DNA of 64,000 nt from Caldicellulosiruptor hydrothermalis 108 (GTDB lineage Bacteria; Bacillota; Thermoanaerobacteria; Caldicellulosiruptorales; Caldicellulosiruptoraceae), in the NCBI RefSeq assembly GCF_000166355.1, contig NC_014652.1, positions 650,001 through 714,000 on the forward strand, read 5' to 3'. How positions within the stretch are numbered: position 1 is the first letter of the stretch; every line of letters starts with the position of its first letter. The position numbers and the translations under genes were made by a program. This document shows, one piece after another, positions 45,607-46,422 of the stretch. The notes under the pieces are model-generated. The model searched no databases and had not been told where the DNA came from. It was given only the letters and a program-made list of their open reading frames with translations.

Positions 45607-45648
45607 GGCACATGCATGTAAAAGAAGATGTATGTGCCTTTTTTGTTT
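45607..45648 (+). terminator. Terminator after the second DUF362 gene
   Basis: GGCACATGCAT (45607-45617) pairs with ATGTATGTGCC (45628-45638), one mismatch, and is followed by TTTTTTG. Confidence 0.9.
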
Positions 45649-45701
45649 GCTTAAAAAATAGAAAGTAACTTTTCAACACCCAGAGAAGCTTGGGAAATAA
45701 C

Positions 45702-45792
45702 ATATCCACAGAGTTATCCACATTATTCACAACTCATTTTTTAACAGAATGGATATTTGGCTATTGTGAATTGTGGATAGTTTTGTGGAAAA
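45702..45792 (+). promoter_or_regulatory. DnaA-box cluster upstream of hpf
   Basis: Two abutting perfect boxes (TTATNCACA) lie at 45714-45722 (TTATCCACA) and 45723-45731 (TTATTCACA). One-mismatch boxes are at 45702-45710 (ATATCCACA), 45772-45780 (reverse, TGTGGATAG) and 45784-45792 (reverse, TGTGGAAAA). Five sites in 91 bases, in a gene-free and AT-rich gap, is far above chance. DnaA binding to such sites is established; whether it regulates hpf or titrates DnaA here is inferred. Confidence 0.7.
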
Positions 45793-45873
45793 AATTTTTG
45801 TGTAAATAAGTTGAAATTGGTGGTATATATATAATATCAAACAAAAACCTTCTACATAGAAAGGATGGTCAAT

Positions 45874-46422
45874 ATGATGAACTTTATCATCAGCGGCAAG
45901 AACATAGAAGTAACAGATGCACTAAAAGAGAGGATTGAGAAAAAACTTTCAAAGCTTGAGAGGTATATTAAACTTAACACAGATGTTCATGTAACTTTGA
46001 GTGTTGAGAAGATCTCACACATAGTTGAAGTGACAATACCTTTCCATGGAATGATTTTGAGAGCTGAAGAGAGAAGCAACGACATGTACAGTGCCATAGA
46101 TTTGGTGGTTGACACCTTAGAAAGGCAAATCCGAAAGTTCAAAACAAAGATAGCAAAAAGGGCAAAAGATGCAGAGTCTTTGCGATACATGACATTTGAC
46201 ATTGAAGAGCCTGAAAAGGAAGCTACAGAAGAAAATGGTGAGTTTAGAATTGCCAAGACAAAGAGGTTTCCAATAAAACCAATGAGCGTGGAAGAGGCTA
46301 TTTTGCAGATGAATTTGCTTGGTCATAACTTCTTTGTATTTTTGAATCAGGACACAGATAAGGTGAATGTGGTGTATAGAAGAAACGACGGTGCATATGG
46401 TTTAATCGAACCTGAATATTAA
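45874..46422 (+). CDS. hpf: Long-form ribosome hibernation promoting factor
   Basis: Long HPF dimerises 70S ribosomes into inactive 100S particles in slow growth. The 182-residue protein has the N-terminal HPF domain (FIISGKNIEVTDALKERIEK) and the C-terminal dimerisation domain (RFPIKPMSVEEAILQMNLLGH, then FVFLNQDTDKVNVVYRRNDG). I take the ATG at 45874 (AAAGG upstream); 45877 is possible. It precedes secA and prfB, the usual Firmicute order. Confidence 0.96.
   Translation: MMNFIISGKNIEVTDALKERIEKKLSKLERYIKLNTDVHVTLSVEKISHIVEVTIPFHGMILRAEERSNDMYSAIDLVVDTLERQIRKFKTKIAKRAKDAESLRYMTFDIEEPEKEATEENGEFRIAKTKRFPIKPMSVEEAILQMNLLGHNFFVFLNQDTDKVNVVYRRNDGAYGLIEPEY

Follow-up and report, generated by a model that had tools for sequence, protein, structure and literature searches.

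An ectopic DnaA-box cluster upstream of hpf in Caldicellulosiruptor hydrothermalis and the recurrence of its core module in related bacteria

DnaA-box clusters described outside oriC

Bacillus subtilis carries clusters of DnaA boxes (DBCs) outside oriC, for which Okumura et al. (2012) is reportedly the primary paper. The eight regions of the B. subtilis chromosome that DnaA binds most strongly in vitro are described as the major in vivo regions as well, and they include the gcp-ydiF region ("downstream of gcp; downstream of ydiF"), for which a 16-fold preference for ATP-DnaA at 55 nM is reported (PMC4447404). B. subtilis without the six clusters outside oriC initiates replication early (PMC5295017, PMC13220808). 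A 2017 review assigns these clusters no significant role in initiation, with a strong effect only when all six are gone (PMC5295017), and a 2024 paper describes their role as inhibitory, through the sequestering of DnaA (PMC11019786). Live-cell evidence of DnaA titration on the chromosome is reported in a 2025 paper (PMC12371093).

In Escherichia coli, DnaA is found in vivo mainly where two boxes are separated by 2 or 3 bp, as in DARS1, DARS2, datA and oriC (PMC11317965). B. subtilis has neither datA nor DARS loci, and according to a 2026 review it is unknown whether this bacterium has regulators of DnaA-ADP/ATP interconversion (PMC13220808). Among the papers listed by searches of the open-licence PMC literature, no link of DnaA-box clusters to hpf or comFC was found; the text of a Streptococcus genome paper contains "DnaA box" and "comFC" once each (PMC2516327).

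The boxes upstream of hpf

The window is the whole stretch of 64,000 nucleotides that was analysed, C1:650001-714000 of the single-contig genome of C. hydrothermalis (2,770,676 bases), and a DnaA box is here a 9-mer with at most one mismatch to TTATCCACA. Five such 9-mers lie within 91 nt, at positions 45702-45792 of the window, which agrees with the original prediction. They are located, also as predicted, between a terminator-like stem with a T-run of the upstream DUF362 gene (45607-45645, + strand, read by eye) and the gene of the ribosome hibernation factor, hpf (45874-46422, + strand, Pfam PF02482 and PF16321). Three of the boxes are on the + strand. Box 1, ATATCCACA, at 45702-45710 is the first half of a double box; box 2, the perfect TTATCCACA, follows after 3 nt at 45714-45722; and box 3, TTATTCACA, at 45723-45731 abuts box 2. 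The inverted boxes CTATCCACA (45772-45780) and TTTTCCACA (45784-45792) are on the − strand. A box with two mismatches, box 0, TTTTCAACA, is located at 45670-45678 on the + strand, 32 nt before box 1. The abutting boxes 2 and 3 had been described as both perfect, which applies here to box 2 alone, the sole perfect box across the window; its partner TTATTCACA is a full match to the looser TTATNCACA only. The abutting pair reads TTATCCACATTATCCACA in 10 of 11 congeners, with both boxes perfect, and box 3 is TTATCCACA in 10-11 of the 11. Downstream of the cluster, the genus alignment gives a putative hpf promoter block at 45820-45838 (+ strand) with TATAAT at 45830-45835. Neither this block nor the terminator-like stem was among the matches of a stem-loop and promoter search whose loop limit was 8.

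The number of single boxes in the window is ordinary (25 seen versus 20.1 expected), and it is the clustering that is unusual. In 200 first-order Markov copies of the window, the largest number of boxes per 91 nt was one in 132 copies, two in 67 and three in a single copy, and among 20 sampled 20-kb stretches of the genome the oriC stretch alone reached three. Five boxes in 91 nt are far beyond chance, and the locus has the clustering of several boxes outside oriC that is typical of the B. subtilis DBCs; the two same-strand boxes 2-3 bp apart that make up the E. coli double box are present at 45702-45722. The double-box pattern TATCCACA-NNN-TTATCCACA at ≤2 mismatches occurs at three places in the whole genome, which are both arms of the cluster and oriC. 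With ≤3 mismatches allowed, it has fewer places than its reversed control (24 versus 50), and perfect boxes are not enriched genome-wide (42 versus 40 for the reversed pattern). The lack of genome-wide box enrichment, where only the double-box matches at ≤2 mismatches stand out, speaks against reading the site as a DnaA-box cluster.

Conservation of the boxes upstream of hpf in relatives, which had been proposed as a check of the original prediction, is observed throughout the genus. All 12 genus genomes searched have at least three boxes (≤1 mismatch) at matching distances from hpf: all five are kept in nine genomes, four in two and three in one. Box 0 and the inverted box at 45784-45792 are kept in 12/12 genomes, the latter with ≤1 mismatch and as TTATCCACA in three congeners, and the inverted box at 45772-45780 is kept with ≤1 mismatch in 9/12. 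The core module formed by boxes 1 to 3 lies directly upstream of hpf at a constant distance in 12/12 genomes, and boxes and spacing are kept as well in 148 of 299 sampled genomes of the phylum. Judged from these patterns in the DNA, the hpf-side site is very probably a DnaA-binding cluster.

The module in the phylum and on the chromosome

The core module consists of a box, 3 nt, a second box and an abutting third box (9-3-9-9 nt), usually with a weaker box about 31 nt upstream. It was found at ≤3 mismatches in the 148 genomes just mentioned, counted without regard to kinship among genomes, and the reversed pattern gave 0 in every row shown for the 299 genomes. Within the class, the module is present in 33/34 genomes, in 32 of them exactly once. 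The genome without it (G013) and the 151/299 phylum genomes without it at this threshold weigh against the cluster reading.

The sampled phylum genomes hold at least 150 module places, of which 143, in 142 loci, were read; the listed places left out are one each in G068, G215, G269, G037 and G121 and two in G112. Loci were labelled by tblastn with a few reference proteins. Among the matches listed, the 142 loci comprise 55 on the comFC/hpf axis (49 with hpf found, 6 by comFC only), 57 on the tsaD axis (49 with tsaD found, 8 only by neighbours that are ABC-F, fthC-like or lgt-like), 1 at dnaA/dnaN and 29 elsewhere. Some of the last group (e.g. L209, L211, L281) resemble the hpf side by their neighbours and were left where they were. 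Pfam searches of representative genes identified TsaD, an ABC-F-like ABC transporter, a treble-clef protein, a family-3 solute-binding protein and hpf; in the ComFC-like protein, a double zinc ribbon scored above the cut-off and a phosphoribosyltransferase domain just below it. Counted by genome, again among the matches listed, 32 of 94 genomes have modules on both axes, 23 on the hpf axis only, 25 on the tsaD axis only and 14 on neither. The possibility that the module is an oriC module copied elsewhere was rejected, as only 1 of the 142 loci (among the matches listed) is at dnaA/dnaN.

A box 30-33 nt before box 1 is present, among the matches listed, in 41/55 hpf-axis loci, 31/49 tsaD-axis loci and 16/35 usable other loci, where equal windows elsewhere average 1.7, 2.2 and 1.1, respectively. 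The highest values at other offsets (17 near +64 on the hpf axis, 15 near −78 on the tsaD axis and 6 near −78 in other loci) indicate that some further offsets recur too.

At 36/36 sampled loci with hpf in the fetched stretch (among the matches listed), the module is upstream of hpf and on its strand; this co-orientation, together with the invariable position directly upstream of hpf in the genus, is a point against the cluster reading. At the 49 tsaD loci (among the matches listed), it lies beyond the 3′ end of the gene, always on the opposite strand, with a median gap of 114 nt. A separate set of 80 named hpf loci (502 kb) was searched for box-NNN-box-box with ≤4 mismatches of 27, which was found in 14 loci and was lacking in 66, with none for the reversed control. 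The carriers include records of Tissierella, Schnuerera, Pelotomaculum, Desulfovirgula, Paenibacillus, Laceyella and Lihuaxuella. Each of the 14 modules precedes hpf (−164 to −2186) and none lies downstream; ten are on its strand and four on the opposite one. The latter four (L061 at −2186, L067 at −2126, L065 at −583 and L128 at −255) come from Lihuaxuella, Laceyella, a Paenibacillus and a Fermentithermobacillaceae record and differ in orientation from the 36 co-oriented loci.

The distance to hpf is constant in the genus; elsewhere it is 0.12-3.3 kb, or the module is away from hpf. In 13/49 hpf loci (among the matches listed), hpf is 2.4-3.3 kb from the module, and where the intervening genes are listed, a solute-binding-protein gene comes first (by eye). 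Ten Thermoanaerobacter-like genomes have the module 0.12-2.8 kb upstream of hpf in nine cases and on another contig in one. Some genomes of this group carry a GC-rich insert upstream of hpf (L014, L139, L141), partly common between genomes, which is possibly a repeat or a mobile element. None of the nine Thermoanaerobacterium-like genomes has its single module near hpf; among their loci L346-L351 (module near 1501), a DUF438/hemerythrin-type gene adjoins it in L346, L349 and L351, identified by Pfam for one of them. The sister genus genome G012 has three modules, none at hpf. Two of these, C13:8617 and C13:10896, are 2.3 kb apart, and the third is at L334:1501.

Two further groups of modules were observed. 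In family f16, a module of the form TTATCTACA-NNN-TTATCCACTTTATCCACT, or close to it, stands at the 5′ end of a ribonucleotide reductase gene (L193:182-2500, − strand, with the module at 2511, and also L190, L196 and L198; Pfam PF02867/PF00317 for L193 only). By analogy with nrdA in E. coli, it is plausible that this gene is a DnaA target. Modules of the form box-RAG-TTATCCACA-CTATRCACA occur near 2460-2525 in L247, L249 and L250, beside a gene whose start, as we take it, resembles argininosuccinate lyase.

Chromosomal distances were computed by hand with dnaA taken as the origin. In six closed genomes with both sites (G143, G147, G231, G263, G286 and G046; the tsaD site by neighbours in the last two), among the matches listed, dnaA lies between the hpf module, at a distance of 7-15% of the genome length, and the tsaD module, at 14-19%. 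The hpf site of the genus is 19.5-28% from dnaA in nine of the ten genus genomes with dnaA placed. In the tenth, the module (G008:C1:1490643) is about 50% of the genome from dnaA, a position that may reflect rearrangement or misassembly.

Role of the cluster and comparison with known systems

In the established geometry, the core consists of boxes 0 to 3, all on one strand, with 22-23 nt between boxes 0 and 1, 3 nt between boxes 1 and 2 and none between boxes 2 and 3; to this core the genus version adds two inverted boxes downstream. DnaA would be expected to occupy the double box of boxes 1 and 2 first, along with the abutting box 3, and then to spread cooperatively onto the weaker boxes. The locus, about a quarter of the genome from oriC, would be replicated some time after initiation, and because of this delay its duplication would draw free DnaA, probably mainly in the ATP form, off oriC, so that re-initiation is damped. 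Titration or tuning of initiation, rather than control of hpf, is somewhat the more probable main role of the cluster. Titration by one module per genome may be slight. As the cluster stops about 38 bp short of the putative −10 of hpf, transcription of hpf may also be affected, though probably as a secondary effect.

The principal alternative is that DnaA bound at the cluster mainly regulates hpf transcription and thereby couples ribosome hibernation to the replication state, which we regard as doubtful. The constant distance in the 12 genus genomes, the promoter-element-like position and co-orientation at the 36 loci with hpf close (among the matches listed) and the upstream position of all 14 modules in the named loci are consistent with it, and DnaA acts as an activator or a repressor at several B. 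subtilis clusters (PMC4447404). However, an equal module is present at the 3′ end of tsaD, the distance between module and hpf ranges from 0.12 to 3.3 kb, and 4 of the 14 modules in the named loci are opposite to hpf's strand, with 66/80 of these loci lacking the module. The sister genus has no boxes at hpf, yet keeps the promoter block at 45820-45838. The module is retained beside changing neighbours, an observation that points to a role at the level of the chromosome more than to regulation of hpf. Of the roles suggested in the original prediction, titration or another chromosome-level role of DnaA therefore fits better, and control of hpf expression fits less well; this ranking is based on the tsaD-side modules, on the 13/49 loci (among the matches listed) with hpf 2.4-3.3 kb off and on the 9/9 Thermoanaerobacterium-like genomes with the module away from hpf.

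The E. coli loci datA and DARS promote ATP hydrolysis or nucleotide exchange by DnaA, and datA and DARS2 have an IHF (and Fis) site at a required spacing. It is improbable that the present cluster works in the same way, altering the nucleotide state of DnaA beyond binding it. Double boxes with 3-bp spacing are present in DARS1, DARS2 and datA alike (PMC11317965), the ATP preference of the B. subtilis gcp-ydiF region is strong (PMC4447404), and in related genomes the architecture is fixed and the distance from oriC roughly so. Against this, B. subtilis lacks these loci (PMC13220808), and the site considered here is a candidate known from its sequence.

The two groups of boxes also form an inverted repeat at 45705-45789 (+ strand), a potential hairpin with a predicted minimum free energy of −31.4 kcal/mol (z = −5.4). 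The boxes could then be a by-product of a hairpin (RNA or cruciform) or of a site of another dimeric protein, which we consider highly improbable. Every one of the 12 genus sequences has a strong predicted fold (−22.3 to −34.9 kcal/mol), each of 11 distinct rows retains 25-31 of the 31 reference pairs, and the pair at columns 41/84 is altered on both sides, to C-G in three rows. However, at least one reference pair is broken in 10/11 rows, often at box position 5, where DnaA tolerates changes. Broken pairs with kept boxes lean towards a constraint on the boxes rather than on pairing. Moreover, in the 55 hpf-axis loci (among the matches listed), opposite-strand boxes have no offset common to ≥15% of the loci, and the same-strand module persists there, which means that the module exists without the inverted repeat. 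Rfam gave three matches, two microRNA families over the repeat and one antisense family elsewhere, all far below their gathering scores.

The true origin is located elsewhere. The dnaA gene and its boxes are within the first 1.7 kb of the contig, and the cluster is at 695.7 kb, in mid-replichore. The GC skew, sampled in twenty 20-kb stretches, has positive values between 0 and 1.26 Mb, negative ones between 1.40 and 2.52 Mb and a value near zero at 2.66 Mb; it changes sign near 0 and between 1.26 and 1.40 Mb and not at the cluster. The original prediction had placed the cluster away from any obvious origin, and this is borne out by dnaA at 0 Mb, 0.70 Mb away, and by the skew. Despite its DnaA boxes with adjoining AT-rich DNA, the cluster has next to no chance of being a secondary or cryptic replication origin, which is ruled out by the GC skew and the position of dnaA: no skew switch is present at 0.696 Mb, dnaA, dnaN and box clusters are at 0 Mb, and by eye no trio-like repeat lies beside the cluster, whereas one follows a box at oriC.

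The conserved arrangement of the cluster suggests a control point for DNA replication. B. subtilis-like bacteria restrain initiation without Hda, SeqA, datA or DARS, and the module, a precisely delimited element some 60 nt long that about half of the phylum genomes sampled carry, mostly at two places, offers an object to delete, move and reconstitute. The findings suggest an old and widespread class to which the gcp-ydiF cluster of B. subtilis belongs, and hpf is a possible link between replication and translational dormancy. A bolder and unlikely reading is that an ancient, stereotyped four-box DnaA complex, common to much of the phylum and placed at two addresses fairly near oriC, the comFC/hpf arm and the tsaD arm, is the functional counterpart of datA/DARS, a dedicated initiation timer for each arm and not a mere sponge. 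If so, the four-box complex would read out the replication of each chromosome arm.

Compared with the organism's own oriC, the cluster shares the box consensus, and a box-3 nt-box arrangement with one mismatch is present at C1:41-60; in contrast, a search of the oriC region, covering the initial 20 kb and the last 1.7 kb of the contig at up to 7 mismatches, gave no 9-3-9-9 module. Between dnaA and dnaN (L026:1606-1640), a perfect box is shortly followed by TACTACTAGTAAG, which we take to resemble a DnaA-trio unwinding element.

With the B. subtilis DBCs, the cluster has in common several DnaA boxes outside oriC, and the tsaD-side module occupies the same place as the gcp(tsaD)-ydiF cluster, at the 3′ end of tsaD, a likeness of position. 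The hpf side differs: the main text of PMC4447404 contains none of the names "hpf", "yvyD" and "comF", and hpf is absent from those of its table rows that were covered. With E. coli datA, DARS1 and DARS2, the site shares a non-coding location away from oriC and a double box with 3-bp spacing (PMC11317965), whereas the gene contexts are different and the hpf-side site is known from sequence alone. The box-3 nt-box unit is likewise the in vivo binding unit at the E. coli double-box targets (polA, purH, nrdA and others; PMC11317965), from which the hpf-side site differs in its neighbours, in its third, abutting box and in a fourth box about 31 nt upstream. Taken together, the hpf site is most simply another DnaA cluster of the B. 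subtilis/E. coli type with double-box spacing.
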